Origin: Paraglomus occultum
Lineage: Eukaryota; Glomeromycota; Glomeromycetes; Paraglomerales; Paraglomeraceae
DNA length: 45,267 nt
Direction: 5' to 3'
NCBI GenBank assembly: GCA_910592205.1
Contig: CAJVPJ010000095.1
Coordinates: 1 to 45,267 of the forward strand
Position 1 is the stretch's first letter. The number at the start of each line of letters is the position of its first letter. Shown here in pieces: positions 3,201 to 45,267 of the stretch. Under the pieces are notes generated by a model that saw only the letters and a list, made by a program, of their open reading frames with translations, was not told where the DNA came from and did no database searches. A program made the position numbers and the translations under genes.

Positions 3201-3212
3201 AATTGAAATTAT

Positions 3213-5206: not shown

Positions 5207-5208
5207 TA

Positions 5209-12582: not shown

Positions 12583-14976
12583 ATGTCGTTAACGTCAAGA
12601 GTCGTTAACAATCCAGCGGTTGATGATTTGGTTCAATCGTCCTTGGAAAGTGAAAAAGAATGCTTAAGACTTGCATGGATTCCTTGCTCAGATATTACCG
12701 ATATAGCGCCAACTCAAATTGACAACGTCTACTATGCTATTTGCAAGGATGAAGGTGAAGTCAAGGAAACGATAATGCTTTTGCTGCTTGGAAGTGACGA
12801 AATATGTACACCACAATTTGTGCGTGCGTTCGCCAGAATATACGCACTTCCAACACACGAGTATAATAGTAATAGTAACGACAACTTTAAAAGGTACAAA
12901 AGATGGCTCGAAAGTCGCAACGCACTGATAAAGGGATTTACCGAGCATAATAACAACTACTACATGGTGGCTGATAAACGCTTTTACGATTGCTATTCTC
13001 GATATGGATTCTGTACCGCATGCGGAATACTCCGTTGTAGTCCTGTATGGTGCATTTGTGGTCATAAGGAATTATCCGATGGATGGACCAGCAACAATAA
13101 GCGACTCGACGAGTTTATCAAGAAAACTCAATTACAGACAAACTCACCCAATGACGCCTATTTGGAATGGATTCCATACAATTGTGTTGAGGATAGGAGA
13201 TATGAGGTATACTTGTGTGGTCTGCCTACTGATGCATGTATTGGTCCTGGTATGATAATGACCCCGCTTGAAATAAATGATCGAACGGATAATGCATATT
13301 ATGCCGAGGTAAACTATTTACATGTTTATTGAATATTTAAAATAATTGTTGACTTGTACTGTGTATCATTTCCCTCTAGTTATGTGATGTGCATCCAGAT
13401 ATTCTTACCACGGATGTTTGGCTTACTATCGGATTCACATATGATGCAAGCAAACAAAAGTATTGTCTAATACAACCGTCGTATGGGGATGGATTATGTC
13501 TCGTGTGTACAGATCACTTAGAATCTAATATAAAAGTATTCTGTCTTCATTGTAAATCGCCAAGACTACGAGGTTGGACTACTGGCAATAAGTCATTGGA
13601 TTCATTTATTATAGAATCATGGAATAATACAGAGAATAGATATGATGCCTATGTACATTGGATTGAATACTCTCAATTGGCAAATGTACGAGAAATGACA
13701 CCATTACGCCATGGATGCACGCACATGGCAGATTGTTTAAAACTGATAACAAATGAATTGACACATGTGATATTCAAAAAAATAGTTGATGGGCAAACTG
13801 AACAGCCGTTTGATTTTCATCAGGTACAGTAAACTATTTTTATTTTGTGTAAAACAATGCAATAAGTGCGTATCATACAACCAGTGTTGTAATAACTGTA
13901 TATGTGTTGTTTATTCAAATAGCTAACTAAAGAATATCCAGACATATTAACACCGGAGAATATTTGGATACTTGGAATCACCCAGGAACCATCTACTCGG
14001 GAATACTATTTGGTGTTTTACCATGACATACATGCACTATTGAAGTTTATGATTATACAAAATCATATTAATATGGTAAAATACATGCAGTATAGAGACT
14101 TTTATGAACTCAATGAGATTGGATCTAGAGGTTATACAACTGTCTATACTGCCAAATATAAAAATTATTCAGAAGAGAATATGCCACAAACTGTTGCACT
14201 CAAACAGTTTAAGAATTTTGATGAAATGCCAGAATTATTTATTTCTCAGGTAAGTGACTGTTGATGTTATAAATTAAAGTATGCTTAACCTGACTCTGTA
14301 TTCATTTTATTAACAGTTCAGAAATCATGTCAAGTGTGTATATGTATCTCTTCTTGGTCATATTATTTGTGGCGTTACACAAAACCCCTCAACAAAAGAG
14401 TACATGATTGTTATGCAATATGCTAACAATGGTAATCTTTTGTCTTGTTTGGATCAAAATATTAACAAATTGACGTGGAAGAAGAAATTACACCATTTGA
14501 GGTATATTGCATTGTATCTGGTGGATATCCATGGCGCGGGATTAGTGCATTGCAATCTTCATGGCGGAAACGTTGTTGTGCAGAAGAATAGCAATGACAT
14601 TACATATTCCGTCATATACGATTTTGGACTCTCACGATCAGTGAATTCACGCGAGTCAAATCCAAACCTTCGTGGCGTTTGCCCCTTTATTGCACCCGAA
14701 GTCTTTTATACCCGCAAATATACTCAGAAATCAGATGTGTATTCTTTTGGTATCATTATGTATTTAATGGCTACTGGTGAACCGCCTTTTATTGACAGAA
14801 AGATTGATAGTGATTTAATACACGATATTATGGACGGACTACGACCGTCAATGCCTGATTCCGCACCGGAAGAATACAAGAAATGTGCCGAGTCGTGTTG
14901 TGATGCTGATCCTAATAAGCGTCCGGATGCAGGGTCACTTTTTCACAATCTTAACAAACTTGCTAAAGAGCTTTGA
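12583..14976 (+). CDS. zinc-module protein kinase family copy 1, probable pseudokinase, 4 exons, 718 aa
   Basis: Exons 12583-13308, 13380-13823, 13923-14249, 14317-14976. The introns (71, 99, 67 nt) are GT-AG and all phase 0. Residues 144-159 hold Cys in a CX2CX4CX4CXC pattern, then WTSNN...LDEFI and LEWIPY. Residues 282-300 hold CX2CX11CX2C, then WTTGN...LDSFI and VHWIEY, a diverged second copy. The kinase domain is about 449-710: glycine loop IGSRGYTTV (456-464), VALK with Lys484, DFG at 601-603, FIAPE, KSDVYSFG, DADPNKRPD. The catalytic loop is HCN (577-579), so the catalytic Asp is Asn. The glycine loop is altered, and the likely helix-C Glu is Gln499. Copy 2 keeps all three, so this copy is probably catalytically dead or weak. 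The start is the first ATG in a frame conserved with copies 2 and 3. Confidence 0.85.
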
Positions 14977-16020
14977 CAAGGACAATTCTGTTGATAATAC
15001 GTGGAACGCTGCTCATCACGCTGATGTAAAACCCTTACCGCGTCTCGAGGAGAGTAAATACTTTTAACTACTGGGGGTCTGTTTAATGGGAATTGGTTGC
15101 TTCTCAAGTTTAGAGGAAGTAAAGGAATTTAATAACGGTTACAAAGACAACAATTGGGTCTGCTCATGCAAACGAAATCATCTACAATATCAAAGTCGTC
15201 TACTGTTTATTGTAAACCCGTTTATTCAAAGATTGACCCCTCGTCAAACTAAATAAAGCAAACATTATTCATCCATATATAAGATACGTTGATTACCTAA
15301 AGCATGTCTAAGGGCTGCGAAGCAAATGGATCGATAAACTCGAAAGTGAATAACTGACTCCGATCGGCGCTAGGTCGTGAGTAGTAAGTATAGTTTAACT
15401 TTCACTATACTTAACTGACAATAAGCCATTCCCCAAAAAATTGCGCCAATGCGCCACTGCAATCACCAAAAATAACGGGTCGGATAATCTTGAGACACAA
15501 ATCCATTATGAGCGGGTAAGTAATGTTGTTAGAACATTAGTTGTAAAGCCGGAGATTTTTAGTCCATATGATCAATAGTAAAATACGTAATCATACTTGT
15601 ACAATCGTCAATAGATGTCCTGTGAATTATGCATAGTTAATAGTTATATTTGAGGTTTGTCAATTATAAAGTCTTTTTTTCCTTTTCTTTTTTTCTTTTA
15701 AATACAAAATAATAATCATTCGAAAATATTTAACTGCAATCACTGATCAATGTCCATTACAACACCAATTCCCCTCTTGTTCAGCAAATCGTTGCTATTA
15801 AAATTAGATTACATATCAATCCCAACTACACACTCCCCCACCCCCCGAACTCGTTCAGAAGAAATGCCGTGTCATCCCCATTTCCTCCTCTCCAGCTTTT
15901 TTATCTTCTTCGCTGTGAAATTACAAAAAAAAAAAATCAGACCAATGTTTTCAACATGCAATCCCGTCCCCCCCCCCCCTTCCTCCTCCTCCTCCCTTCC
16001 CTCGGTTAAAAACGTGACAC
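14977..16020. other. convergent intergenic region with C-rich tract
   Basis: Lies between the 3' ends of kinase copy 1 (+) and the F-box gene (-). It holds AT-rich sequence, a T-rich tract at about 15667-15698, and a C-rich stretch with a run of about 12 C at 15968-15979 followed by TCCTCC repeats. No gene is seen. Confidence 0.5.
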
Positions 16021-17655
16021 TCACCACAACTTCACTTCTATGCGGACCAAGTCAGGAAACGCGGGATTCCCCGTCACATGTGGTTTCTGCACTATCCTAC
16101 CTATCCTCATTGAATAGTCCTTTATTATCTTGAGACTCTGCTTCACATCATTCAACGTGCAAATCCACGATATGACATCGAGTTTGGCCTCGCAATGCTT
16201 CAACAACCACCGTAACGGTTCTCGTATCGACGTCCATTCGGTATCTATTGACAATTTCCGTATGTGTGACGGTACACTGATCATATTTTTCGCTCGATAA
16301 CTGCTGTAGACAGTTAGAACGTCTTGGGTACTAAGTACATTCAGCGACGATATGCTCAATTCTGTTAATTGAGTGAATCCTCGTAGTGAATGCAACAATA
16401 TTAGTACATCCTCGGCTCTTGTCAATGTCGCGGAAAATCGAGTGACGTTCGTACAATATTTCATCAGTGTTGGGAGCACTGATTCAATGTCCGTTATCCA
16501 TAATCCAAGATTGACTTCTTGTAACGTGCCGGCTGCGCGTGTCAACAAGATCGAAAGCTCCTCAATCGGTGGAGACCCCCACGTGCCTACCCATGAAGTA
16601 TGCGTTCTGTAATCGTATTTGATGCCAATGAAATCCAACCGTTTTAACCGGGGGAAGTGGCAACTGGTAAATGAGAAATACTGTGCGTTCAAGTTGCGGC
16701 GACATGATATTATGCGTAGTGTCTCTATGTTTTGGCATATGGAGTAGTTTCCCAGTAACGCAATGTCGTTCAACCAGCAACGATAGAATTCTATGTATGT
16801 TAAAGAGTGCTGTGAATTTAGTGCGGGAAGGACTGTCTGAAGTTTAGTCACCCAGAATCCATCGATCGTCAGCTTGCGCAGCTTCCGTTGAGATTCAATG
16901 AACGACTGAAGGTAATCTGCGGGCTTGCAAAAACCTTCGATTCGTAAACACTCGACGTTGGTGCTGTGTTTCAGGATCCCAGTACTATACAACTGCTCGA
17001 GCAAAGTTGGCCCGATAACCAGACCGTTTAAACGAGTGACGCATTTAGGTGATGGAGTAAAGCGATAAAGATTAGGATAGAGTTCTTGCAGTTGTGATAA
17101 CTGATACTTGTTTGGCTCCTTCTCGTTGAAGCATAGAAAGTCAAAACGTTCACAACGATCCAAAAACAGTTTGCACAGTTCATCTGCCAGGCTACGATAT
17201 TCTGTCTTTTCGGGATCAGTGTTATTATGCCCACCTTTAGTTTCCGATACGGGATGATGCGCTTCACACCAGTAATAAGCCGCAGTCTGTAGATCAGAAA
17301 GATCGAGTTCTCTTAATAGCTTTGGATAATCAAAGGTGGGAGGACGATTTGTCGGGTTTAATCGTATGCCAAAGGCCGATCTGGTCTTTTCGCTCAGAAA
17401 GGGAAGATACGAATTTACGAGTTTGACGTATCGATATCCGCATAGCAGTCGGCGTCGTTGGGCTGGGACGAGATTAATTGCATGGTCAGAGTCAATCCGG
17501 CCAAGTACATTAAATGGTTGTCTCCAAAGTAAAGACGTTACTTCGGTGCACCAACGTCTGTTGATTAATAAGGCACAATGAAGGGTGGATAAGTCGTAGT
17601 GGTGAATATGTTCGAGAATATTAGCTATACATTCATCGGGAAGGGAAAATGTCAT
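16021..17655 (-). CDS. F-box protein with degenerate leucine-rich repeats, 544 aa
   Basis: A single open frame from ATG at 17655. The N-terminal F-box reads FSLPDECIANILEHI (residues 3-17), then LSTLHCALLINRRWC and SLLWRQPF, the usual Skp1-binding layout, so it is expected to act as a substrate receptor of an SCF ubiquitin ligase. The remainder alternates short beta/alpha segments such as VECLRIEGF, LRKLTIDGF, IETLRIISC, LKRLDFIGI, LQEVNLGLW and LTELSISSL, which is a degenerate LRR solenoid. Large expanded F-box/LRR families of this shape are typical of Glomeromycotina. The stop TGA overlaps a donor-like GTGAGT, so a 3' intron with further coding cannot be excluded, but no matching exon was seen. 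The substrate is unknown. Confidence 0.85.
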   Translation of the reverse strand: MTFSLPDECIANILEHIHHYDLSTLHCALLINRRWCTEVTSLLWRQPFNVLGRIDSDHAINLVPAQRRRLLCGYRYVKLVNSYLPFLSEKTRSAFGIRLNPTNRPPTFDYPKLLRELDLSDLQTAAYYWCEAHHPVSETKGGHNNTDPEKTEYRSLADELCKLFLDRCERFDFLCFNEKEPNKYQLSQLQELYPNLYRFTPSPKCVTRLNGLVIGPTLLEQLYSTGILKHSTNVECLRIEGFCKPADYLQSFIESQRKLRKLTIDGFWVTKLQTVLPALNSQHSLTYIEFYRCWLNDIALLGNYSICQNIETLRIISCRRNLNAQYFSFTSCHFPRLKRLDFIGIKYDYRTHTSWVGTWGSPPIEELSILLTRAAGTLQEVNLGLWITDIESVLPTLMKYCTNVTRFSATLTRAEDVLILLHSLRGFTQLTELSISSLNVLSTQDVLTVYSSYRAKNMISVPSHIRKLSIDTEWTSIREPLRWLLKHCEAKLDVISWICTLNDVKQSLKIIKDYSMRIGRIVQKPHVTGNPAFPDLVRIEVKLW

Positions 17656-20600
17656 AGTAGTAATGTTCGATAATTAGTCATTCGGTATGTTTGCAACCCA
17701 ATTTTATAGTCCAATAAGCTATATGTAGTGTTAATCATTTTAGGACCAATCAGAGCGTAGTGGTAATAAAACGGAATTTACGAGGATTTTGTCCGTGTAG
17801 CCTTCGGATCGTTCTGTGTACATTCGATCATCAATGTTTGTCGGAAATTAGTCACCAATGGCTTTTAATGGAATAAAATAACCAATAGAAAAGCACACTA
17901 TTGTAAATTATAAAGGTTATAGTCATGTGATATAATCATTTCGCCCTTGATGTTTGGACTTGTAAAATGGGTATTTCCGTAAAGGACAAAAAGTCTGATC
18001 TTTTTTTTTTTTTGAGCCAATCTTTTCAAGTTTTGGTGAGCGAACGGGTAAGTGAGAGCGTGATTCTGGAAGAGAAAAAAGGGAAGAATGTGCTTATCCG
18101 ATGTACCTATCGTGAGAGTGTACGAAAGTATTTATCATAATATAAATTAGTGCGTGCGATCTACAATACCCGATTCATTAGTATGATCCCATGACTTGCG
18201 TGCCTCATTTATTGCAATTAATTTTACGTTTTAGATTCTAACAATCGGACATACTTGGTTAACAAAATAGTGGAGGGCGGAGTGACTCTGTTGGTGTAAC
18301 TTTCGAATATACACTTCGCCATGATTCGTTCCGTTATCGGTGCCCTAACCAGTTGCTGCAATTGGTTTACAAGACTTTACACCCATTTTATATAAAAATG
18401 GTGGGAATAGTGTGGGGGGGGTTAGTATTAATATTAAGTGGGAAGGGTTAATTATTAATAAATCAACCTTAAAAGTGACGAGTTTGATTAGATTGTCTAT
18501 GGATGGATAAAAGTTGAACTTGATAAATATTTGACCTACATATAATAAATATTTGTGCACAAACTGTACAATTAATTTGTCTTGTATAATTAGAGAAGGG
18601 GAAAGGGTCTCTGATTGCCACATGAGTGTATGCTCTGTCGTGAATAGAAAACTGATATTATTGTATGCAGGCGTGATCAGTTACAACAATCGTGGGAATC
18701 GATTACCATTAAGAGTTAGAGCATAATAACTACAAAAGCAAGAGTTATACCGTCTTTGGTTGCTGGGGTGTTATACAATAAAGAATTGGTCGAAATGTGG
18801 TCCTCTCAAAAGATGTCACGCATATATATGCATGCGTCACTCACCGTATAGATCGGTAATATTTGCTACCCTCTGTTTCACTGCAGAAAGGGTCTCTGGA
18901 ATGTTGTGGGGAAACGAGAGATACCAACCGTTTAACACATAATAACCGGTGATACTAAGTTTCTTACCATTATATATGTAATCCATATGACATCATTTTG
19001 ACAAAAGTTGCCCAAAATAAAGTCTTTCCAATGATCTACTCGTTGGCGTTTCACAAAATTCCCCATTGTTAATGGACTTCCCACACATCTTCTTTCGATG
19101 CGCCAAGCAACGCGTAAATTGGGACAAAGTAATAATTTATGCATACGTATTTACTCGCAGTTATTAATGCTATAAAACAAACACTTAAATAGAAATCTGC
19201 TGTTTATTCGAAACACCAAACGGTTTAACCTTTCGGACCGAGCAAATGTTTCGGTCCTTGCTACGTACGTATATGCAAACTAGTTATTGCTAGCAGTTGT
19301 CTGTTATACTCTTGGTCCTACAAAATACAATCGTGGGCATGAATAAACTCTCGTTAGTAAGGCCAATTAGAACCAGTTCTACTCAAAAAATCACACCTCT
19401 CTTTTGATTGGATGCTTTATGAACAATCGGCTTCCCAACAATGAATACAAATTTGGTAATTAAGGGGCGCAAAATGGCTAATACTAAAGTTTAACTCCAA
19501 TACCGCGTCTAATAAAAAATAGCAGGGTTAATACACGCAGACAGCCTCATGCAATCCAATATAATACAGATAATGTTATATACGAACCAAAGAATGTCAA
19601 AGCATTGCTATTTTGACTCGTCAACTGCAAACTTTATTTCACCATATCAAGTTTGATATAACTTAGCCATTAGCCTGGACGCATTACTTTAGTTGTGTTT
19701 TTTTTTTCTCAACTCTTTCAAGACTTTTAAACTTAGCTCTTTGTTATTTTTAATGTTTGTATTACTACGTTACTACATTCGATCATAATAAGTATATTCT
19801 CTCTCTTTGGCAATTAAATTTACTAAACAACATGAAAGTTGTGTACATCGCTCTTGGAAGAAATGTTATTTAAAATACATAAATACAAGTTTTTTCAAAT
19901 TTGCCATAATAATATGACAGTAAATTTGATGTTATATTGGTATAACCATTTTTTAAAGAGTTCTTCTCGATAAATGTAAAATTCTACTCATTATTGTTGA
20001 AACTACTATTCGTTATCTTTGTCAGTGTATGGTTATAACTTGGATTTCAAATAAGTGTCTCGTTGTTGATGTCACCAGCGCTCGCGCTGTAGGCTTATTC
20101 ATAATGATTAGCCACAGCAATATTTAAACCGAGACTTATTTCCGACCCGATACATTAAAACAAAAAACATAACGTATTTCTGCACATAAAGCTAACACAT
20201 TAAACGCAGCTTACTGCTGAAAGTAATTGGTGAATATTCGAACGACTGGACAACTAGCTTTGGTTAAATTTTAAATTAATCAATAAAACAACAATTCTCC
20301 AACATGTTGATATTGTCAGGCTCTTGATTCGATATTATTGGTACAGAATCTGACCAAGGACATTACACGGTCGAATAGCCAGTCATATTACAGTATTATC
20401 ATCGTACAAGACAAGCTAACGTCTTCGATCTTAGATGCGTATCGATCTTAGATGCGTAAGCATTCTGACTAATCAATAAAAAGTACGCAATATTAATAGT
20501 TTATATTTCAAGAAAATAACAAAAACGTAAACTTGCCAACTTATTTTCTCGGCTACTCAATATGATTGATGTTTATGGAATAAATTAAATATGTTATAAG

Positions 20601-21962
20601 TCAAGAATATTTAAGCAATTGGTATACTTTAAAAACAACGAGCAAAAAACAGTAGATAAAATAATTTTACTGGCAAATTACACAGAAAACCTAAAGTGAT
20701 TTGTAACTTGATAATATACAACCTCTCGAGGGTTAAGATTTTCTTGATCACGACAAGAATAAATTGATAAAATTGTCAACTCATCCAAATAATACTACGC
20801 GCTCACTATTATATCTCGACCAATTTGACTAATTCGATACTGTAATAAGCTATCAAAAGTATTGATATTTTTCCAAATTTTGACTACGTATCAAGACATG
20901 TTGCAATTAACAAGTAAATTTGTCGTATGCTGCTGCGCAAATAGCAAATAAATTTTTATTTAAAAAAGCACTCGAAGCATTACATTCTACACATACGTCC
21001 GGAAAAAGTTACTTTACGTTTGCACTTTGCACCCAAATTCTACGTTACCGTAAAATGTTTCATATTACTATTTCAAAAGTACAGCGCCAGAACTGGAGTA
21101 TTGTAAGTAAACTGTAGAAATTAACTGCTAATAGCTTATCCGTTTTTAATTCATTTATTTTTAGGCAAGTAAGCTTCGAAATTTATGCCGTTTCTGGACT
21201 GGATAATGAATCTGAATGTCTATTCGTATCGCTGAGCCCAATTCTTTAACAAAACACGCAAAGCCTCGCACGGCATATCGGCACTTGTGTCGTAATAATA
21301 GTTTGCCATTTTCATATGCCAATGATCAGAATTGTCTCGTCAGGGCGAAAACAAAACTGAAATTTTTCAAAGTATTTTCAACATTTTGCTGATTGGAAAG
21401 AGAAAGTTTAGGAAGCAATTTGTAATGTTGACAACAAATCGCTATCAACTAATAACATTTATCTTTTGAAAATGTATGACACTGTGTTAGAAATTTGTGG
21501 GTCTATATGGATAAACTGATATCAGAGAATCAATTTATCATTTCTTACGGTATCCAAATTTACAAGGAGATCCTTTATTTGCACGCGGAAACTAACTGTT
21601 CAAGCAGTCTCGGTTCTTCCGACCACCAATACAATCGCATAAAACAACGTGCGTGGCTTTTGTCAAATAACTCAGCGACCCCGGTGGAGATAAATGACGG
21701 TTTATTGTAAAGTTGACAGTCCGTTTGATGATTTGAAGAATTAGGTAATGAAACTACGTCACTTTGATGAAAGAAAACAATGTCGTGAGAATAATTGTCG
21801 GAATAGATAATAACGGTACATATGGAAATTATTCCCCAAATTGGGCCAATTAGAGAAAGCAATCCACGCAACACCAAGGATCTGCACCTGACACATTTTT
21901 GCTTGTTCCATAGATCTTGGTAATAGTTATTGATTTCCCTTATTGACACTTACAACAAGATA
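17656..21962. other. 4.3 kb gene-poor region
   Basis: Promoter of the F-box gene, then AT-rich sequence. It contains a small open frame listed separately (17967-18140), a duplicated 16-base word CGATCTTAGATGCGTA (20425-20457), and short hairpins GGACCGA...TCGGTCC (about 19227-19249) and CAGCG-CTCG-CGCTG (about 20078-20091). No tRNA, transposase or conserved gene was recognised. Confidence 0.45.
17967..18140 (+). CDS. hypothetical small ORF or first exon, 57 aa
   Basis: ATG at 17967 opens MGISVKDKKSDLFFFLSQSF and runs to TAA at 18138-18140. A strong donor-like GGTAAGTGAG sits in the middle of the frame (about 18047), so it could equally be the first exon of a spliced gene. No family was recognised. 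A poly-T run of 13 lies within the frame. Coding status is doubtful. Confidence 0.2.
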   Translation: MGISVKDKKSDLFFFLSQSFQVLVSERVSESVILEEKKGKNVLIRCTYRESVRKYLS

Positions 21963-22694
21963 ATGTTATCTCTTTGTGCCTCACTAAAACGATCCTTATC
22001 ACAGATAATTCCGGCCCAATTTTTACTTCCAAGCTCGTTCACCGCTAAATCTTCCTTCACTAATCCTCTCCTCAAATCCACCTTTTTATCTCCCTGCATC
22101 AAATATCCATTATCAAGCTCTCCTCTTATTGTCAACAACTTCAAATTCGCAAATTATGCAACATTAAATCAAGTGATACGTAAATGTCGAAAGACCAAGC
22201 GCAAACCAGCAAGATCGCCTGCAATGGAAGGCAATTGTCAGAAAAAAGGAGTGTGTAACAAAGTATACACAACAAAACCAAAGAAACCTAATTCTGCTGT
22301 GAGGAAAGTAGCGAGAGTCAAACTATCTACTGGGAAAGTTATTATTGCATATATTCCAGGCGAGGGACATAATCTGGTATGTGATTAAACGTATGTAAAC
22401 TCTAATCGTGCTTGCGCGCTGATTTTATCTCGTTTCGAATCGAATAATTTATTAGAGTGAACATTCCGTCGTGTTGGTGCGTGGAGGTAAGGAATCAATG
22501 CATGTTGTGCCGACTTGAAATATCGAAACTTATACTAAAAATTCCTATATCGTCACCCTGCAGGTCGTGTAAAAGATCTTCCGGGTGTCAGATATCATCT
22601 GGTCAGAGGATCCATGGACTTTCAAGGTGTACCCAACAGAATGACTTCGAGATCGAAGTACGGAACAAAGAAACCCAAAAGCTCTAGCAAATAA
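21963..22694 (+). CDS. MRPS12: mitochondrial small ribosomal subunit protein uS12m, 3 exons, 191 aa
   Basis: Forms the decoding centre of the mitochondrial ribosome. Exons 21963-22376, 22456-22486 (31 nt), 22564-22694; introns of 79 and 77 nt are GT-AG and the total (576 nt) closes in frame. The first ~64 residues are Ser/Lys/Arg-rich with few acids, a mitochondrial presequence. The mature part starts near [18 protein letters not shown] and contains the universal uS12 signatures [48 protein letters not shown] and the basic tail [11 protein letters not shown]. It has Ser where most homologues have Gln after GEGHNL, exactly at the exon 1/2 junction. A cytosolic uS12 is excluded by the bacterial-type motifs. 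Confidence 0.93.
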
Positions 22695-23443
22695 TCACGT
22701 ATACTTGTATGCCTGTTGCGAGAGTAATCGTCTATCGTAATAATGTTCATATGTGGCACTGCTATATGCAGTTGTGAGAATAAGGCCCGCAAAGGTCTTG
22801 TTATTAGTATTATCCGGTTGTAGCAGGTCGAAAGAACCGAACAAATTAGTCGTTTTATGGAAGAGGCACATAAGAAGTTTGTCACAAGCGGAGCGAGAGC
22901 AGTAAAATGGGGAGTTTCATGAGTAATGCAAGTAGAATGTTGTCGATTTAGTATTGTTGATTCTGAAGCTACGCATGTAAAACGTTCGATGAGTACGGAC
23001 GCTATTAGTAAAGACTCTATGAACGGATTTGGATGTCCTGCCTGAACCGTAATTAGACGGAATAATATATTTTTGTTACTTTAATGTATACCTCTGTACG
23101 CACTGTACTTGACCGGTTAAGTTATAAACACAATGGCTAAGAAACTGGATTATCATAAATACATGCGGAATTCCCATTCTTCTCTAATAATGCTTTCCCA
23201 CCTTCCCCATACTCTTACCGTAATATATAATATATTAGTCGGAATGATCGAATATCCTTGAAGAAGGGCGCTCGCTGTCATCGTGCACAGACGCCCTGTG
23301 TCTTATTAAATATCACACAAGACGAGTATGGTTGTGTTAGTGGACAAAATTGCGCTGGCAAGATATATTATTGTCTAAATCTTGTATTGAACTTGATATT
23401 TCGCTCAAGATTATGCAAAGTTGTAACAAATTTCATTTATCCA
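22695..23443. other. intergenic region, no gene seen
   Basis: AT-rich sequence between uS12m and the Sel1-repeat relic. Short open frames here lack start context or conserved motifs. Confidence 0.4.
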
Positions 23444-23896
23444 TTATGAAAGTGGAACTAAAGTGGAGACAAATGAACAAAAAACAGTTGAATGGTATCA
23501 AAAAGCAGCTGATCAAGGTGATGCTGTTGCACAAAAGAATCTTGGTTGGTGTTATGAAAGTGGAATTGGAGTAGAAAAAAATGAACAAAAGGCAGTTGAA
23601 TGGTATCAAAAGGCTGCTGAACAAGGATATGCAAGTTGCACAATATAATCTTGGTGTGTGTTATGAAAGTGGAATTGGAGTAGAAAAAGATGAACAAAAG
23701 GCAGTTGAATGGTATCAAAAAGCTGCTGAACAAGGATATGCAAGTTGCACAATATAATCTTGGTGTGTGTTATGAAAGTGGAATTGGAGTAGAAAAAGAG
23801 GTTTTATTCGCAGCACATTTCCACGGAACTGCTATTCCGACCATTATTGTCTATATGGGACAAAATAAATTAAAGTTCCAACAATTTGCAATATAA
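23444..23896 (+). pseudogene. Sel1-repeat (SLR) gene fragment, frameshifted tandem units
   Basis: Units of the form CYESGIGVEKNEQKAVEWYQ + KAAEQGYA are repeated about 3.5 times. The unit start ATGAAAGTGG occurs at 23446, 23554, 23663 and 23772, so the spacings are 108, 109 and 109. The last two units carry the same extra A (GCAAGTTGCAC), which shifts frame and yields a stop (SCTI-stop) in each. Intact Sel1 units are 36 residues (108 nt). There is no kinase or other partner domain in frame upstream; downstream the frame runs to an unrelated tail ending at 23896. Sel1 proteins often accompany kinases in these fungi, but this copy cannot make a continuous protein. Confidence 0.75.
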
Positions 23897-34522: not shown

Positions 34523-35766
34523 GTTGATCAGGTAATGAAAGTGTGGGCGCAAAACGGAAAAAGAAAATAGAGATTGATTAATTAATTATCGATCGCACGT
34601 GCTTGAAAAGAAATTCTCGTGTTACCAAAAATTTCGCGTGTCAAGTTAGTTATTTTAATAGCATATTAATATTAATATGGTCACATGAGATGTCACGAAG
34701 CGTTTTATGGAATTAACGAACAATATCTATTTCCATCTTAAATTCGGTGAGCTGGAATTCTGGTATAGGTTTAAACTCGCTCAGCAGGAGACACGATTGG
34801 TTTGGAGACTTGATTTTTTTGTTTCATAAATTATAAAATGTTAAAAGCGTTGTTTGGTGAACGTTCGGCGGTTGATAAAATGGACCGGGATTTTTACTTG
34901 AAATAAAAAAGACAAACTGCAAACGATCGCATTGCAAGCGCACTGTCGAGTTCTACGGAATCAGATAACTGTCCACTCAAAAATGCTCGCTACGAACGGC
35001 TACTTTATCACAAAGTACCATCTTGCTCATTAAGCAAAAATATTTATCAAGTATACTATGGTAAAACTCTGAGTTAGACTCAGTTTTATTCTACAAAGTA
35101 CGCGAAAGAAAAACATTATTACTTTCATTCTGCAAGGCCATTCTCGAGGAAAATAACAATCAATTGGAATATAGATAAATAAAGAGGAAAAGTGGAGAGA
35201 GCTCGAGTAATGGCACTAATGTACTGTACGTTGTTTGTTTTAAGAAGACCTCGGCAATTAAGTGTATCGACTGTCCCTTGTTTCGCAATTCATATGTAAA
35301 CCTTAAATTACAAAATAGCATTTTGGGAAAAACATCTCGTCATACCTCCGTGCAATCATGATACGGCGACCTCACCTAAAACCAGTTATCTGCTGAATCC
35401 GGGGGCTCATCATCGAAAAATTCAAGGTGCAAATAAGCAACATGTTTATTGAATTAAGCAGCTCATGGCCGATATTACCGAACTTGGTTGAAGCCGAAGC
35501 TGAGAATGCAAGCTTCGGAAGGCGTGAAAAAAAACGTACTCCAATAGTTTCATCCTAATAGTATTCCTGAACTGGATAATAATATCGACAATTTGCATTC
35601 AATAACGAGAAAGGCTTCGGGATATTATTACTCTCAGCAAATCATATTAATATTCATTAGCCAGGCCTTACGTCACGAGAATTTTCAATCACGTGTTAAA
35701 TTTTCGTATACACGACCACACACACAGTTCACTCTTCCTCTTTCAACTTAAAACGATCGCTTGTAT
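34523..35766. promoter_or_regulatory. divergent intergenic region (peroxiredoxin / NDC1)
   Basis: 1.24 kb between divergently transcribed peroxiredoxin (minus) and NDC1 (plus). Both promoters must lie here. Pyrimidine-rich CTCTTCCTCTTTC sits about 30 nt before the NDC1 start. No other gene is seen. Confidence 0.5.
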
Positions 35767-38613
35767 ATGTCTTCTATAAACCAACCAACGATAACTCCAC
35801 CCCAACCACCCGCTCCACCCAAACGCACAAAGCATGGATTAACATATCAGAACGCGTGTGTTAATGTTGCACTTAATGAAAGACAATATCTGTTTTTGTT
35901 TGATGTTGCGGTGAGAGCGTATGGTACTGTCGCCGTACTCAAACTCTTACAGCCATGGTTCGGTGAGTTAACTGACGTAGGAATGACAACACATGTCGCG
36001 TCATGGAGATTTTTAAATGTGCAGAATTACTTGCGATTGCTTTTTGTTCGATCATTGACTTTTACTGCAACCACTTTACATTGATTCCGTAGTTAATCAC
36101 ATTTTTTGATATTTGACATACCCTTAAACTTGACTTTTTTTTATTTCAATTTATTCGACTTTCTCACTAGGCAGTCAAAAAGATGAAATATCATTTCCAT
36201 CTATATTAGTATCATCGGATACGTTAACTGTCTTCGTCCAGCTGTATCTGTTTGGGCTGTTACCGCTGTGGGCAATAAAAAAGGTTTCCATTGATAAATT
36301 AGGCAAGTTATAACAATCGGCTGATACTGTGTGATCGATTTATTGCTAACTAATCTAATAATGTATTCGGCTTGTAGTTCGCCCTGATATACCAAAGAAT
36401 CTTCTATTACATATAAAATCATTCTTTACGTCATTCCATGCTCTTTTGACGATTATCACATACATTATATCTTCGTTTGTCATAACGAAATGTTTTCATC
36501 AAATTATTGGGAAAAAACACACAAGAAGCTGGATTATACTTCCTGGCGATGAAAAGTAAGTTAAATGAAAGATAAATAACACAAGACAAGTCGGATTTGA
36601 TTTCATACGTGAATTTCGACTAATTGTTTACTTTTTTTTTGCAGTTTCTGGTGTCCATCATACAGAAAAGACAAATGTCTGAATGATCCGTCAGTGCTGA
36701 ACGAATATCGTGCAATTGCTGGGTTTTACAGTATAATATTTGGATTCATTTTCGCATTAAAATATACAATTAATTATGAAAACGAAATCCACTTTTATAA
36801 AATAAGAGTAAGTTATCTCAAGCAGATATCATCTGCGTATAGAAAGCAAATTTTATACGAACTTGTGAAGTGTATACATACGCGCATGCATGCATTACTA
36901 ATGAACGCAAATAACTTTTTTTCTTCACTTTTTGAGCAGACATACTCCTCAACTATCCACTTCCTCTATTCAAACTACCAATCTCTTCTCTCTCCCAGCA
37001 CGTGGCGTCGCTATGGCAGTCCACTTATTGCCAGACCGCTGCTATATCTTGAATCGAAACATCCCATTGATTACAAGAGATATACGTTTTTATTTTTATT
37101 CACTCTTGCATATTGGACATGGCATCTGATATTCTGGAAAACATGGTATCATGGAATAATTAGATGGACACCATGGAGGTGAGCACGGTGATTATATCAC
37201 GCATTACAACAGAAAGACCATTGTAACTTGGTGCCGGTTGTGAAATATCGTTTCTTGTCGGCACTATCAAGATATGTACTAATCATGACTCTTGCTATCT
37301 TCGTAGTAAGGTCGAATACGAATGGATGAAGGCACCATTGTTTGACATCGAGACGTTCAATCGCACACTGTTCAGCGCATTTGCATGTTTAGCTCTGTGG
37401 GACACTTTAGACAAGTTATTCTCATTCTATTTCACCAACGTAATCACAAGTTTCTAATAATTAAAGTTTTATTTTCAAATATGGTTATTTTCCATTTCTT
37501 ATGTCATTTAACTCTTTGCAGAATTATTATAGGTAATATTTGCAAGTGCGCCTTACATGGATCCCAATTCGGTATTAGTTGATGGACTGCGAGCAACAGA
37601 GAAACCATATACTCAGGTAATTAATAAGATGGCAAGATGGGTTAATAATTATATATGTTTGTGCTGCCATAAAATTGTTAGACGTAGCGAATGTATTAAT
37701 TATACTCATTTTCTCTTCAAATAATTTATTGATTCAGCATTTGGCATTCCTAGAGCTCCATTATATAGCGCGTATAGCAACACCGCAGACAATAGCTCGT
37801 CGCACTTCAATATTTAAAGATCGCGACTCGTGGGATACAGTATCACGGTCCTGCATGTCTTTTCTGTTCTCGTTCGCTCTTTGTAGTCAAGCCCATCTCA
37901 TACTTCAAAAGCCAGATGAAAAGAAGAAACCAGACAGACATGAAGAATTGATGAAAATGATACTACCTCCTCATTATGCATCAGAGAGGAAGAAATTCGG
38001 AAGGGGGAAGAGATTGTTTTATGACCTAGTTTTTTTACTTTTGAATGAAAGCGTTGACAGGAAGACAAGAAGATTGTGCAGAGATAAGGAACTGGTTGTG
38101 TTTGGCGTTGAAGGTGAATGAAAACGCGGATTTATATGTTTCTGCGAGTTAATTAATCTTACTAAGCAATTTTCTAATGGTTTTATCATACCTGTTCCCC
38201 ACGATACAGCTTTAGCATCACTTACAGCTGCTTCCCTCACGCTAGACCAGTATGGAGTGGTCCAGTCCGATATACCAAAAGTATTTGAATGTCTCATAGA
38301 CGTGTTGATTAGTCTGGAGAAGTACTCAAATAAACCGCCAGTAGGGTTATGGGATGGTCGTAGCCCTTCCGAAGTACAGTTGAGAGCATTGAACGATATC
38401 GTTGGGTTAACTCTTGGTGGGTAAGAGTGAGACGGGAAACAGTTTATGTGATATCGTGCTCCAGCTATTTACACATTGTTTATTTGCCATTTTGTAGTTG
38501 TGAAAGATGCGATAAATGAATTGACTATGGCGTTACATGAATATTTGGACACGGTCCGATTACCTCCGCCGCATCATAATAGATTGGAGAAACTGTTAAA
38601 TGAACATATGTGA
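35767..38613 (+). CDS. NDC1: nucleoporin NDC1 (Cut11/Ndc1 family), 10 exons, 607 aa
   Basis: Integral pore-membrane nucleoporin; in yeasts it also anchors the spindle pole body in the nuclear envelope. Exons: 35767-35962, 36171-36302, 36378-36555, 36645-36807, 36940-37178, 37307-37439, 37533-37616, 37738-38113, 38210-38416, 38498-38613; 1824 nt close in frame. A Pro-rich cytosolic N-terminus precedes six predicted membrane helices (about residues 42-62, 83-101, 124-145, 190-209, 271-289, 324-345), the family number. The soluble half has GLRATEKPYTQ, HLAFLELHYIA, ARRTSIFKDRDSWD and the conserved end ALASLTAASLTLDQYGVVQS. Length matches S. pombe Cut11 (~600 aa). Intron 2 is best explained as GC-AG (TTAG|GCAAGT at 36302/36303); no GT donor keeps the frame. 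The last donor (38417) is GTGGGT. Confidence 0.88.
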
Positions 38614-39170
38614 TCAAAGATAGAATATATACTGATATTAATATTGGCACCAGCATGAGTTGCAGGCCGTTGAGCCGCGTTGAGCAATTATTTCGGTAGC
38701 ATTTTGGATTCTTTGCAGGTGCAAATAAACAACCGTCATACGTATCAATAGCGTTAACTAAGTGGGTGAAATTATATCGGCGAGAATTTATAAACTCCTC
38801 ATTTGGTATATTCTGGAATCTCTCATGGCGAAGTAAGAAAGAGGAATGTTGCTCATGATATTGTAAACGTCCATGTCCAGAACAACGATTTCGTGTTATC
38901 GTTAACATAGTAAAAATCCGAAAGCTTTGGTGGTCGTCGTATTAATAAATTAAATAATATGATATTATCGAAATATTTATTGACAAGTCCAGTTGAATGG
39001 ATATGTGAAGGAATGTTGTGTTCAGTTGAATGTTATACACAGTGAAATACATGAATAATAAACAATGATAATGAGCGCACATATGCAAATCTAACATGTT
39101 CAATGATTATAAAGTGACCAGCGATCCAATGTCCCTTTTCACCCATAGTTCGTTTGAAACTTCATGCCAA
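38614..39170. other. convergent intergenic region (NDC1 / MTRR)
   Basis: Holds the 3' ends of NDC1 (+) and MTRR (-). A minus-strand open frame of 127 codons (38525-38908) overlaps the NDC1 last exon and shows no family motif; I treat it as chance. Confidence 0.5.
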
Positions 39171-42100
39171 TTACCACTGTGACAATACAACGGTGTAATT
39201 AATATAATAATGTATGTAATTATCAAATTATGATCAAAATGAAATTAACGCTTACCAAATCAAGAAGATATTTCTTCTCGTCCGTCCATTTCAGCAGCTG
39301 CTTTAGTGCATCGGCGTGTGAGATACCATTGTATTCAGACAAAATCGCCGCTAGCGTATCATTCACCGCTTTAGCCATCCCCTTTGCATCTCTGTGAACA
39401 TGAGTAATGGTTATTTTTGAGCTAGAATTCCATACCCAAGATAATATTCATATAAAATTGCGCATATTAACTTACCCACAAACAAAGACGACTGCGTCCT
39501 TGTCATAAATCATCTCGTAGACTTCTTTGGCATGAATCTTGATCAAATCTTGCACATACTTTGGTTTCCCGTTCTCGCCCGCTCCGGGCTCCCTACTTAC
39601 AGCAACGCTTAATCTGCCTAGTATGCCACGAGAGAGGTATCCTTCTATTTCATTCTTGTATAAAAAATCCTTGGATTTATCCCTACAGCCGTAGAATAAC
39701 CAACTTTCGCCGTATGAGGAAGAGATGCTTTGAGTCTTTTTGTGTTCGATGTCACCATGGTCGGTTCCATTGGTGTCTACCCCATTATGATCTATGTCTC
39801 CAATATCTTTTCTGTTCACATTGGCTATACTCTCCATAGTCTCGTAAAGTATTTTCAATTGACACTCTCTATGTTGAAGGAATCCCAAAAACGGCGCAAC
39901 CCCCGTTCCAGGTCCAATCATAATGATATTTCTTTTCAAATCCGATGGTACATTAAACTCGTGCGTATTCGGCTTGAGGAATAGCGGTATAGCAACTCGT
40001 TCGTCCTTGTTGATTTCAACCCTAACCCCTCTTTCTGTCACTTTCCCCGATAATTCATCTAGCCACGGTGTACACACACCACGCTTACTTACATCAAACT
40101 CGTTTGTAAACTCAACTACGTTGAAAGCAAAATGCATAGAACGAGGATGAGCAAGCAAAGAATTGATTGCAGAGTAATAACGCGGTTGCAATGGTAAGAG
40201 TACGTCGAGAAGGCGATCGAACGGCGGCTGGCAGGATGGGAAGGTGGCGAGAACGTCTAAAACCGTTGGTAATTGATTACGGAGAGCCGTAAACTGGCCG
40301 AGACCTTATGGTGGCGAGGGACGGGGAGGGAAAGAGAAAAATCGAGGGTGAGTGTATAAATGAAAAGGGCAATAGATGTTTGAGTACGGTAATTGGCGCC
40401 GAGTCAGTAATAGTTGGCCACATTTCTTACATTGACCTAATCAGTGGATTAACTGTTCATTATACACGTTTAAAAGTCACTTCATATCTCACCTTGCTTA
40501 CTACACAGGAATAGTAAGGTCTTTTTCTCTTCGGCGTCGACAGCACATTCTGCCAGCATTCTCAACAATGGTTTTCGTATTAATGATGTTAAGTCCAAAC
40601 CATATCTCAACAGTTCATATAACGATGTTGACTTTGCTTCCTTCAAATGACTTGGAAGATCTATTAATTCAATTGATAACCAAAATGCAAAGTTTGGTTA
40701 AGAGTGATGACAAAGCACATATGAACAATATCTTTAATAGCTGCCCTAACCATCTCGAACCACCAGTAACATACCACCATGTTTTGCGACATCGATACTC
40801 TGTATCTCGACTTCTTTATGCATTTCATCTTCACCAATTCCAAGCCTATTCAACAGACCGCGAACCAACCCATCGTCGTTGGGCGCTATCACTCCGAATG
40901 CATCACCCGGCAAAAATGTAACTGTATCTTTTTCTTCTTCGTCCACTTCAAGTTCTATTTGTAGTGTCCGTTTGACTGCATCAGGATCAGTGAGAAGTGT
41001 AGCGGCAGAGAGGTAGGCTTGGAAGATTGGAGATGGCGTTGAAATAAACGATGGTGGAAGAAATTTTGAAGTGTGTTTGCAAGTAGAATGAAAAGTTGTG
41101 CGGCAAATGGAGGAGGGAATGCGTGGGATGGCTGTTAGTTGGGTGATTGTCGACAACGTGGAAAGATCGATGGTCAATGGCGTGCCAAGCGAGAAGAGCT
41201 TTGGGGTGGTGATGCTTAAAGCTGCTGTAAAGGTCGTAACGGATGAAGTGTCATCTGTGGACATAATTGTCAAATTGTTGGCAGTTTCCTCATTAAGAGT
41301 TGTTTCTTTGATGATGAGTGTTGTGGCAGTGGCGCTTGTGGATGTTGTAACAGTTGTAGCAGTCGTAGATGAAACCGCATGATTCATACGGGTCGCATTT
41401 GTGTCATCTGTGGGCGTACTTGCGTTATTGTTGGCGACTACGTTTTCAATTGTTGTTTCTTTGGTGGTATTTGTATCCTTGTTTTTTGTTGGCATTGCTT
41501 TCATGCTGAAATCATTAGTAGATATAGTTTGCGTTGTTGCAGTCGATGTTCGTTCACATACTTTCTCTAATGCTACCCACAAGTTTGATATCCATGGCTC
41601 GACGACTGTTTCTAAGCTTTTAATATGAAAGAAGATTACTTGATCATTTGATCTGGTAACAAAATTGTCTAAAACTCACTATTTCACCATAGTTTACGCT
41701 AACTTATTCTTAATACACATTCTCTAGCACTCGTCAACACCTTAAAAAATGTCTAGCTCGACGCTCCTTACCCTGATGCATCGTCAGCCAATCCTTTATC
41801 ATAGAATGGTCTTCCTCCCAATTCCAAAAATTTCTTCTCAATGCGCTTTGCGGTGTTATTAAAATTAGTATAATTAGTATCGCCTAATCCTTTTGATTAA
41901 ATTAGACTTCAAGTTAGAGAATACACGCTTTTGACAACATAATCAATTCGCATGCCTTATCCGCTCATCATTGCGAAAAACAGAAAAAACAAATTTCTCT
42001 GTTGTATATACATTGTCGATATCATACCAAGAATAGCGAATTGACAATGGGATAAAAATGTCTTTGATTTGATTTTTCTAAGATAACGAAAAAACTTTAT

Positions 42101-42406
42101 TGCATTTTCGGGCGGATCTCCGTCTCCCGTATTGGCAGCCACAACGATCAAAACCTTTGTATGTTCCAGATCAGCCTATGTAGATGTAATGACAGACAAA
42201 GAGCCGGTTGATTATGATAATAAGGCTGTGAATAGTACGGCAGCGGTTTTATTTTAGGTTACCTGCTCATAGTCATCGGTTACGTAGCATTCACTCTTGA
42301 AACCACGTTGAACAGCCTCCTGATTTATGCTCTTTGCTATCCATTCTGCATTGCCTGTTTGTGAGGCATAGAGAACGACCAATTTATTGCTTTTGTTTAT
42401 TGTCAT
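39171..42406 (-). CDS. MTRR: methionine synthase reductase (diflavin reductase), 8 exons, 796 aa
   Basis: Transfers electrons NADPH-FAD-FMN to reactivate cobalamin-dependent methionine synthase. Exons: 42406-42263, 42175-42028, 41889-41772, 41616-40775, 40660-40493, 40304-39476, 39391-39256, 39176-39171; 2391 nt close in frame. Flavodoxin part: YASQTGNAEW (FMN phosphate loop, 13-22), AANTGDGDPP (61-70), LGLGDTNYTNF, FYDKGLADDASGLETVVEPW. This last block, with RGVCTPWL (548-555) and KYVQD, is what points to MTRR rather than NDOR1/Tah18 or P450 reductase. FAD/NADPH part: FLPGDAFGVIAPN (371-383), LCSKQG, FPSCQPP, QPRYYSA (513-519), GPGTGVAPFLGFLQHR (604-619), WLFYGCRDKSKDFLY, VCGDAKGMAKAV, terminal Trp796. 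A ~190-residue Thr/Ser-rich linker (about 157-350) joins the halves. There is also an insert after QHR relative to the human enzyme. The last exon encodes only Trp and the stop. Confidence 0.87.
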
Positions 42407-42775
42407 ATTGCAAATTCTCTCATAAAACTTCTGACAGATCAAGTTTTTATAAGAAATTTTGCGGCCAAATTTTTTGCGCCACAACTGGATGATTAAGCTG
42501 CGTCACGTGTAATTCGATATCATACTCGTAATAAACGTGAGTAGTTATTTTAAGTACTTGAACCATATTTTAATGACGAACAGTAAATTATTGTCCAAAA
42601 AACTCATTTGGATTGCGGGAGTATCAAGGATACGTAACGGAAGTGCGACGTCAGCTAAGAGAACGAGGAGACGGTGCATTTCTCACTACAGTCCTCTACA
42701 TACTAGTGGAAACAATTTTATGGTCTTTTATGTATTTTCACAGTGGTTGAGATACTACAATCCATGTATCATCTA

Positions 42776-43333
42776 TTAATCTAACTTGTAAGGGAATCTC
42801 CCTTCCTCGCGGGCTTGATCCCATTGATCAGTCTTGATGTCCCAGTAATAATATAGCGAGACGTTAATAACGGGAAAGTATGTGTATAGATAACTGACGA
42901 ACTGGTACAAAATCATCTCTCAACAACGACTTACCCAAGAAATAGGACACAAGCTGTGATATGCTTTCCAAAACTGCTTGCATGGTTTGTAATTTTCCCC
43001 ACGAGCATTGATACAGCGATAGTAGTCAACGTAGTTTTGCCAACAGTGACGACTTTGGTTCGTATTGGGAAAACGGGCGTCAAATGTAGCTGTTGTTGGC
43101 GGTTATTAGAATATTATTTGACCAAGTTAAGGAAAGTACATTTCATGATAGAGTATGTCGAGAACAAGGACAACAGTAATTGATTATATCATGTCTTACC
43201 CGTTTGCAGAATGACGGTTTTCTCGTCAGACCTGTAAGCAATTTATCAATTAATTCCCTGTTGTACTCGAAAAGGCTTTTCCATGCTTTCAATAAACACT
43301 TCCGTGTACTAAAGCGACTCACCCTCCAGACAT
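42776..43333 (-). CDS. COX12: cytochrome c oxidase subunit 6B (Cox12), 4 exons, 84 aa
   Basis: Intermembrane-space subunit of complex IV. Exons: 43333-43323 (11 nt, ATGTCTGGAGG), 43231-43200 (32 nt), 43089-42935, 42832-42776; introns are GT-AG (91, 110, 102 nt) and 255 nt close in frame. The protein starts MSGGSDEKTVILQTATFDAR, then FPNTNQSRHCWQNYVDYYRC and PCKQFWKAYHSLC, ending REEGRFPYKLD. The twin CX9C (CWQNYVDYYRC) and CX10C (CKQFWKAYHSLC) motifs define the COX6B fold and Mia40-dependent import. Length equals yeast Cox12 (83 aa). The two tiny 5' exons were found by phase: only this combination gives a start codon joined in frame to the conserved core, so exon 1 is less certain than the rest. 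Confidence 0.9.
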
Positions 43334-44820
43334 TTTTATCAAAAGATGAAAAAGGGAAAACGAATGACATCTACGATCACATGCGTTTTAATGTGTGACA
43401 ACTTCGAAATTCACGTCATGTTCTACACATTTTTAGTAACATGACTCTTTGGCTATTAAATATTAACGATCCTGCACATTACCATATCGTGTTCTCTATA
43501 TTACTGCTAACTTCTTATATTATAAACTTTGCATCGCTATTGATAATGTTACAATGAGTGCAGGTGAGTTAATTCAAACGCAGAGACACAACTTGTCAAA
43601 TTGAGGCATTTCCATTGAGTAAAATGTATTAATTACAATTAGTTATTATTATATTCAGCTTTCGTCTAAATGTAAACGAATAATGTTAGTTTTGAGATGA
43701 AGGGCAGGGCATTTGTAATACAGCGAGCACATTGTTGTGAAGAAAAGTTCTTCGCAATAGTAATGTCAAATAATACAAGACCCCGACTTGGGTTAAAATA
43801 CGTTCTCGAACCTCCCCAACAAAGGATTGAATTTTTGATTTTAACAATTCAAAGTTGTTGCCTTTAAGAAAACTTGTACGATCGTCAGACTAGTAAGACG
43901 ACCGTTTCACATCAAACTCGGTCAGCTTTTCATATTATAGCAAGGAGACGTGAACTAAATGTTACCGGACGTCACCTGATACTAGGAGTTGGCTACTATA
44001 TAAGCTTCTGTGTGCGTATCAGAGCATTATGAGTTACTACAATGTATTGTATAAAAAATGTTGACGAATACGCGGAAAAGTGACTTGTATGGCAATTATT
44101 GAAATAACATTTATTTGATTAAGTTTATCAAACTTGAGCATATTCTCCTACGTACGCTCTCTAAGATCGAGATCATATGCAAAAACGTTTACGATACTAA
44201 CATGTTAAGATTATAGATAAAAAATGATGGTGGTGTTGATTCCGCCTGATAGTAGATACCAGTTGTTTATAATTGCTCTAAGCAAAATCTTCCATAAAAG
44301 TTTTTATTAATTTAATGCCAAATTTAATAATAATCTGTTTACCACGTATCGCTAATGATTTTGATGGCTGTATCTGAATTCTTCAAATCACAAGTCCATC
44401 TCCATATTTAAGAACATATTAGCTTTATGACTTTTGAGTTGTAGGCTTGTCTTTCCGACAATTCGAACATTCTTGATTACAAATTCTTGTTAGGCACAGA
44501 CAACGTATAAAATAAATCGCGTAGACATGGACGTTTCATAACCTAAACATAACATGGGAAATCCAGCAGTCTACATTACCCTACAATAAATTACGGGATT
44601 TTTTGTCAAATACATATGAAATTTTTAATTTTACCAAAGAGCTTTATTGCGCGTATCCACTATATAAGTCACACCAATTTTTTTTATCGATCTAGTCCCA
44701 TCTGCAAATCGAAAGGTTTACCCCATGCGATAATCTCAAATGGACAGTTCCTACAAAACTGTTGGTACACCCGTGTGACGTAATACAATAAACGTGGAGT
44801 GAAACTTGTTCATTCAAAAC
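43334..44820. promoter_or_regulatory. 1.5 kb divergent intergenic region (COX12 / kinase copy 3)
   Basis: AT-rich promoter region. TATA-like TATATAAG occurs at about 44661-44668, roughly 155 bases before the kinase copy 3 ATG, and CTATATAAGC at about 43996-44005. No ORF or RNA gene is supported. Confidence 0.35.
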
Positions 44821-45267
44821 ATGTCGTTAGTATCAGGTAAGAATCCAGCAATTGACAACTTGATTGAATCCAACTTGAAAAGTGAAAAGACGTACATAAG
44901 TTATCTTGGATGGATTCCTTACAAGGAAATCACCAACGTAAAACCTACTCAAATTGACAACGTCTACTTCGCTATTCGCGGGTATGAAGAAATGTTGCTG
45001 TTACTTGGAAGAGATGAAGAATGCACACCAGCACTTGTGAGTGAGTTTGCTAGAACATACTCACTTCCAACACGCAAGTACGATGACAATGACAATAACT
45101 TTAGACGATATTCCAAATTGCTTAATTATCGCAACTGGCTCATAAAGGGATTCACCAAGTCTAATGACGATAACTATTACATGGTGGCAAATAAACTCTT
45201 TTACCATTGTTATTCTCTTTATGGCTTCTGCTCCACATGTGGAATACTCCGATGTAGTCCCGTGTGG
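44821..45267 (+). CDS. zinc-module protein kinase family copy 3, 5' part only (149 codons, runs off window)
   Basis: ATG at 44821 opens MSLVSGKNPAIDNLIESNLK and stays open to the window end. It aligns along its length with exon 1 of copies 1 and 2: LGWIPYKEITNVKPTQIDNV, CTPALVSEFARTYSLPT, KGFTKSNDDNYYMVA, CYSLYGFCSTCGILRCSPVW, so the first zinc-module Cys pair and the third Cys are present. It is distinct in sequence from both other copies, so this is not a recent duplicate. Whether its kinase domain is intact lies beyond the window. Confidence 0.85.
   Translation, partial: MSLVSGKNPAIDNLIESNLKSEKTYISYLGWIPYKEITNVKPTQIDNVYFAIRGYEEMLLLLGRDEECTPALVSEFARTYSLPTRKYDDNDNNFRRYSKLLNYRNWLIKGFTKSNDDNYYMVANKLFYHCYSLYGFCSTCGILRCSPVW

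Follow-up and report, generated by a model that had tools for sequence, protein, structure and literature searches.

Kinase folds can be reused ahead of, or in place of, a catalytic domain. In the JAK family, a degenerate kinase-fold module (JH2) precedes the kinase (JH1) in a single chain; JH2 is a complete, two-lobed pseudokinase, and pseudokinase domains control JAKs. Plant tandem kinase proteins (e.g., wheat Lr9 and Pm57) also join kinase and pseudokinase parts in one chain, with two or more such domains and a possible decoy logic, and KIND, the kinase noncatalytic C-lobe domain, is a half kinase fold that serves as a noncatalytic module. Here, we describe a gene family of the arbuscular mycorrhizal fungus (AMF) Paraglomus occultum that resembles all of these but differs from each. 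The starting point was the entire 45,267-nucleotide contig CAJVPJ010000095.1 (assembly GCA_910592205.1, 32.3 Mb), hereafter the window, which carries three copies of the family. For the roughly 440 residues ahead of the kinase, the best reading is a row of three degenerate kinase N-lobes (N0, N1, and N2), with two Cys modules and WTxxN-WIPY linkers connecting them. On this reading, N-lobes only are repeated, whereas JH2 is two-lobed and KIND is a C-lobe. The plant proteins have at least two kinase or pseudokinase domains, whereas copies 1 and 2 each have a single kinase domain according to Pfam. We regard this architecture, and its origin by serial duplication, as very probable; the whole explanation, which adds a regulatory role, we consider likely.

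The expansion of kinases in AMF is well known (PMC8647823 and PMC4219462), and 2,533 kinases are given for Rhizophagus irregularis in PMC10234402. Within the literature on AMF kinases and on N-lobe repeats, in a search that subscription papers mostly lay outside, we found no description of such chains as N-lobe arrays.

Gene structure in the window

The original prediction saw three diverged copies of a kinase family in which two Cys-rich modules precede the kinase, with intron positions and phases common to the first two. The gene models bear this out: there are two complete genes and one ended by the contig, with exons in common. Copy 1, on the forward strand, has exons at 12583-13308, 13380-13823, 13923-14249, and 14317-14976 and encodes 718 amino acids; copy 2, on the reverse strand (exons 32304-31636, 31566-31126, 31045-30725, and 30650-29928), encodes 717 amino acids with the same modules and introns. 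Each gene has three introns, all of phase 0. The two proteins are 59% identical, and a copy 1 query finds exon 1 of copy 2 with E = 1.9e-84, far beyond chance. The frame of copy 1 ends ~25 residues short of that of copy 2, and an adjacent frame carries a tail like that of copy 2 (window 14900-15060).

In copy 1, to which the following forward-strand coordinates refer, N0 occupies 12664-12987 (about residues 28-135) and has an additional helix between alpha-C and beta-4. Cys module 1 follows at 13012-13059 (C144, C147, C152, C157, and C159), then N1 at 13162-13475 (residues 194-274), Cys module 2 at 13497-13553 (CxxC-x11-CxxC; C282, C285, C297, and C300), and N2 at 13653-14024 (residues 334-424). 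The protein kinase domain lies at 14082-14949 (about residues 444-710; PF07714, E = 5e-36 for the protein). Intron 1 (13309-13379) splits N1 as YYAE|LCD, intron 2 (13824-13922) splits N2 as DFHQ|LTK, and intron 3 (14250-14316) splits the kinase as FISQ|FRN. The linker motif WTxxN-WIPY is common to the second and third units; the kinase unit has no Cys module and carries YMQY, YMEY, or WIDY. In one multi-unit family member (L055; C190:2700-3900), WIDY stands ahead of the kinase, in place of the YMQY or YMEY of copies 1 and 2, and is a relic of the WIPY linker.

Identity of the N-terminal half

Neither Pfam nor NCBIfam places a family above its cut-off on the N-terminal half (the single NCBIfam match, E = 0.17, is far under it), and in copies 1 and 2 Pfam names the C-terminal kinase alone. 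Residues 1-440 gave no direct match up to E = 1 among the sequences of solved structures. When searched against 5.8 billion proteins, with returnable proteins of ~395-1256 amino acids only, they found one relative, P0001 from R. irregularis (E = 1.3e-9, 22% identity). Given that a simple alignment of the four units (N0, N1, N2, and the kinase unit) placed the last three sensibly but not N0, profile methods were used instead, with profiles built from 27 clean copies (see below) and compared by hhalign.

By this approach, N2 matches the kinase N-lobe of its own family over 82 columns (E = 4e-6) and those of Rhizophagus kinases over 86 (E = 5.2e-9), so the homology extends over the length of N2; the kinase unit of the window family matches the Rhizophagus N-lobe with E = 6.2e-21. 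N1 and N2 match each other with E = 1.1e-13 over 103 columns when the linker is included and with E = 2.1e-7 over 45 columns without it. In a control run with ten shuffles and one reversal per pair, the unit relations claimed here scored 35.6-113.6, the best control scored 26.3, and pairs involving C-lobes scored at most 14.3. Kinase N-lobes were also among the structures retrieved with predicted structures of P0001 and of window exon 1, and JAK and TYK2 chains occur among the matches. The best supported conclusion is that N2, and via N2 also N1, represent degenerate N-lobes of a kinase, reaching as far as the hinge and having no C-lobe; N1 is assigned because of its match to N2 and its intron position. 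N0 is probably a degenerate N-lobe too, and is the weakest of the assignments.

Several observations weigh against this reading. Without its linker, N1 matches the kinase N-lobe only with E = 0.24 (10 columns with Rhizophagus), so that its link goes through N2. The match of N0 to N-lobes is weak (E = 2.4e-4, or 7.7e-7 over 43 columns with the preceding helix), and neither N0 (E = 0.18) nor N1 (E = 0.27) matches the kinase unit that follows it in the same genes. These poor matches of N0 and N1 taken alone, together with the lack of any named family, are what would be expected if the N-terminal half were an unrelated new domain, perhaps of a receptor or adaptor, that merely has WIPY and WTxxN in common with the kinase linker. 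We consider this improbable in view of the N2 and N1-N2 matches, the structure matches, and the position of the introns, which is the same throughout the units and in five kinases that apparently have one unit (see below). Nor is there a membrane-like segment in copies 1 and 2: a crude scan found no 19-residue stretch with hydropathy above 1.6 in either, and such a stretch occurs in four of the 27 clean copies. A receptor was rejected as an explanation on this ground. The original prediction had called the N-terminal half an architecture that it could not name, possibly a new receptor or adaptor type; the absence of a named family stands, and the unrelated or receptor architecture gives way to repeats of a kinase N-lobe.

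Spliced copies and shared junctions

Splicing began with 76 chains of exon matches. After 31 single-exon chains (many of them secondary matches) were left unspliced, there were 45 copies from the window and 39 fetched family regions, most of the latter taken around the best-scoring exon-1 matches. No in-frame stop occurs in 39 of the 45. Eighteen were excluded from alignment statistics: five with in-frame stops, five with missing exons (some at contig ends), five with atypical introns, and three that were short. Accordingly, all alignment, substitution, and residue statistics refer to the 27 clean, intact copies, whose proteins are 55-79% identical (median 63%). It should be noted that the splice-site score favored junctions resembling those of the window copies and that phase 0 was a criterion for calling a copy clean.

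In this window-guided splicing, the three introns fall in identical alignment columns in all clean copies, with frame-preserving GT-AG junctions and gaps of 59-103 bases. This bears on whether the kinase and the upstream exons could be separate adjacent genes, an outcome that the original prediction named as one that would undo it. The splicing assumed a single gene, which leaves some room for that alternative. However, all 27 copies allow splicing at the same in-frame junctions, the gaps are short, and Rhizophagus protein models unite the same parts. We therefore regard separate genes as extremely unlikely, and the sequences point to a single gene.

The intron record and the origin of the array

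Each of the three introns lies directly after the alpha-C Glu position of its unit (YYAE|, DFHQ|, and FISQ| or FLSE|). The G of the G-x-T motif lies 18 residues from the intron in all 27 copies for N1 and N2, and 13-22 residues from it for the kinase unit. On the other side, the beta-3 Lys position and the intron are separated by 15 residues in 26 of 27 copies for the kinase unit, by 12 in 25 of 27 for N1, and by 15 in 12 of 27 for N2.

The same genome contains Cys-WTxxN-WIPY kinase genes that apparently have a single unit, for which seven regions were fetched. Five of these (L053, L056, L057, L058, and L059) share with the window family a Cys module, a WTxxN-like helix, a WIPY, WIPF, or WINY motif, a kinase, and an intron after the alpha-C Glu position, and differ from it in having one unit within the 1.35-1.5 kb read. 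In all five, the codon at the alpha-C Glu position, which specifies Glu in three genes and Lys in the other two, is directly followed by a GT donor, and there is a phase-0 AG candidate; the donors were chosen by eye in the translated frames and then checked for GT. Of the other two regions, L054 has no readable upstream part, and L055 belongs to the multi-unit family.

Because the introns of all units and of the five single-unit genes follow the alpha-C Glu position, the array history suggested is the serial duplication of one intron-bearing segment, which would be the simplest history for these sequences. Against this history, the hhalign alignment separates introns 2 and 3 by about eight columns and compensates with gaps. 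The single-unit gene is likely the ancestral plan. From such a glomeromycotan kinase gene, a segment running from the Cys module through the WTxxN helix, WIPY, and beta-1 to alpha-C, then the intron, then beta-4/5, would have been duplicated repeatedly, to give a string of N0, Cys module 1, N1, Cys module 2, and N2 ahead of one complete kinase.

Relatives in other arbuscular mycorrhizal fungi

P0001 (RirG_066690) consists of repeats of a Cys module, WTSGN, WIPY, and an N-lobe-like stretch that runs to the hinge and has no C-lobe. Used as a query, it returned 1,173 relatives, and those named among the 120 listed come from Rhizophagus, Glomus, and Diversispora. A simple pattern count puts the number of WIPY-type unit starts at two to five in 95 of the 120, and in some of these a full kinase comes after them; this share is not representative given that the query is itself an array. 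Proteins of this kind in R. irregularis, R. clarus, R. diaphanus, Glomus cerebriforme, and Diversispora (P0001, P0002, P0008, P0011, P0012, and P0118) have, as in the window family, tandem units of Cys module, WTSGN, WIPY, and N-lobe, each running to the hinge; a full kinase may or may not close the chain. There are clear differences. P0001 is merely 22% identical to the window protein. The Rhizophagus units, as judged by eye, are more uniform and variable in number and often have three-Cys modules, whereas clean copies of the window family have three strongly diverged units plus a kinase, the first and last units being without a Cys module. Overall, the window family evidently belongs to the glomeromycotan Cys-WTxxN-WIPY kinases, its kinase unit having apparently lost the Cys module. 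Neither of the arrays P0001 and P0002 has a Pfam kinase match up to E = 1.

Some kinase matches in the assembly are of another kind. On contigs C393 (L030, positions 1-10000), C970, C593, C16, C662, and C877, they are broken almost solely by TGA (one C877 piece also has TAA); because of this, the genes would be read as code 4. C393 carries a kinase together with what we take to be an Ulp1-like protease, and the kinases of the other five are 46-54% identical to a G. cerebriforme kinase. The six contigs look like Mollicutes-related endobacteria with host-derived kinases. Transfer of kinases from host to endobacteria has already been reported (PMC10507103).

Constraint and catalytic residues

Selection was assessed on the clean copies by a simple Nei-Gojobori count of the ratio of nonsynonymous to synonymous change (dN/dS), at a median synonymous difference (pS) of 0.44. 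Median dN/dS is 0.37 overall and 0.37 for the kinase, with 0.35 for N0, 0.57 for N1, and 0.24 for N2; Cys module 1 (0.12) is the most constrained part, and Cys module 2 stands at 0.48. The cysteines listed above are invariant in all 27 copies (five in module 1, four in module 2), and both modules are inferred to bind zinc.

These values can be set against the view that the upstream repeats are relics, either fossil duplicates carried along by a functional kinase or parts of a repeat-like family that is decaying as a whole and has no function. In its favor, 18 of the 45 spliced copies are not clean, the catalytic Asp is gone in eight of 27, and among the six closest pairs (overall dN/dS 0.36-0.52) single modules reach high ratios (up to 1.6, in N1), based on few changes. 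However, 39 of the 45 copies are free of in-frame stops, the clean copies remain 55-79% identical, and median dN/dS is below 1 in every module, with N2 and Cys module 1 below the kinase itself. We consider relics unlikely.

The kinase domains vary in their key residues. Lys is kept in 27 copies, the alpha-C Glu in 26, the catalytic Asp in 19, the DFG Asp in 23, and the DFG Gly in 20. Copy 2 has the beta-3 Lys, the alpha-C Glu, the catalytic-loop Asp, and the Asp of the DFG position, and its kinase looks competent. In copy 1, Asn replaces the catalytic-loop Asp and Gln replaces the alpha-C Glu; for these reasons, it is probably a catalytically dead pseudokinase. The difference between Asp and Asn at the catalytic position requires four changes on the tree, three of them on well-supported branches. 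In the upstream units, the beta-3 Lys position of N2 is kept in 27 of 27 copies and the alpha-C Glu position of N1 in 24 of 27. The most variable stretches lie in N0 around residues 49-69 and in N1 around 205-225 (mean identity 0.34-0.38), with a further one after the catalytic loop (0.42-0.45); the Cys-WTSNN-WIPY chassis has an identity of ~0.82.

A possible role for the array

If JAK pseudokinases and plant tandem kinases are a guide, the pseudo-N-lobes may have no productive ATP binding and work as modules for docking and regulation in a kinase that is mostly soluble. They would pack on each other and on the kinase N-lobe, and so set the position of its alpha-C, while the variable strands of N0 and N1 would give each paralog its own partner or cue and the conserved Cys-WTSNN-WIPY chassis would keep the string together. 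Some paralogs, copy 1 for example, would be kinase-dead scaffolds or decoys. We put this regulatory-array function forward as tentative, at somewhat less than an even chance.

A simpler alternative is that the repeats are a mere rigid spacer or scaffold with zinc-binding modules, that the kinase is constitutively active, and that the family is large for dosage rather than recognition. The distribution of conservation is compatible with this, in that conservation is among the highest in Cys module 1 and in the WTSNN-WIPY linker, and the lobes vary in places. On the other hand, a spacer would need neither the Lys position of N2 nor the Glu position of N1, and loss of the catalytic Asp in eight of 27 copies means that the output is not uniformly kinase activity. 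A spacer strikes us as rather unlikely, although clearly a stronger contender than relics, and a regulatory array remains the role we favor.

Family size and the rest of the contig

Copy 3 (44821-45267, forward strand) comprises the first 149 residues, that is, N0 and the start of Cys module 1, and is cut where the contig ends, inside the best conserved DNA motif of the family. This motif has 71 exact sites in the genome, 11 of which begin within 115 bases of the start of other contigs. The cut therefore seems to reflect a repeat at which the assembly broke off. Allowing up to one mismatch, a degenerate pattern of the motif finds 204 sites in the 32.3 Mb assembly and its reversed control finds none; a search with exon 1 of copy 1 gave at least 151 matches (150 scored of 633 first-look candidates).

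The 204 sites give an expectation of 0.29 per 45 kb, which the window's three copies exceed. Even so, the idea that the window is a special locus, as the predicted cluster of three implied, was rejected: the family is spread genome-wide, and contigs C216, C277, and C287 also have three sites each among the matches listed. The suggestion that the inverted pair could drive local inversions likewise found no sign in its favor, since two-copy contigs among the exon-1 matches listed comprise nine same-strand and seven opposite-strand pairs (the window pair included).

The window also holds a mitochondrial ribosomal protein S12 gene from ~21963 (100% identity over the query to a P. occultum protein) and, at 23418-23852, a 109-base unit repeated four times in tandem (62-94% identity to the reference unit). 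Long reverse-strand frames at 16021-17673 and 39472-41675 presumably encode an F-box protein and a flavoprotein reductase, respectively.

Implications for AMF kinomes

The search with residues 1-440 returned no P. occultum protein of the family among proteins of the length range given above, although the database has proteins from this species. In PMC10512289, a set of de novo AMF assemblies is described for which genes were predicted on repeat-masked genomes, and two Paraglomus isolates are mentioned. The window contig likely belongs to this set, and repeat masking before gene prediction would explain why the family is missing from the protein results. A second paper on the P. occultum genome (PMC9453076) reports a small genome in which the Sel1, BTB, and WD40 families are expanded, mostly at a lower abundance than in other AMF; its main text does not use the word “kinase.” The family may thus be a large signaling family that protein catalogs have passed over.

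A broader proposal is that N-lobe-only half-kinases are a distinct, reusable AMF module, strung together through repeated duplication of a segment that carries an intron, and diversified over ~200 paralogs as a recognition and decoy array that controls or replaces kinase output. It further holds that the Paraglomus family is largely missing from public proteins through repeat-masked prediction, so that the view of the early AMF genome as gene-poor, with a modest expansion of signaling, would need correction. Taken as a whole, this is a speculative proposal that we consider possible but not probable.

AMF kinase repertoires are very large. If many such chains are half-kinase arrays, Pfam-based kinome counts may miss or misdescribe array-only proteins, as the absence of Pfam kinase matches for P0001 and P0002 illustrates. 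With its place behind the alpha-C Glu position, the intron directly records how such an array was built. The P. occultum case, if true, would mean that repeat masking can make a large gene family disappear both from a proteome and from comparisons of early AMF evolution.

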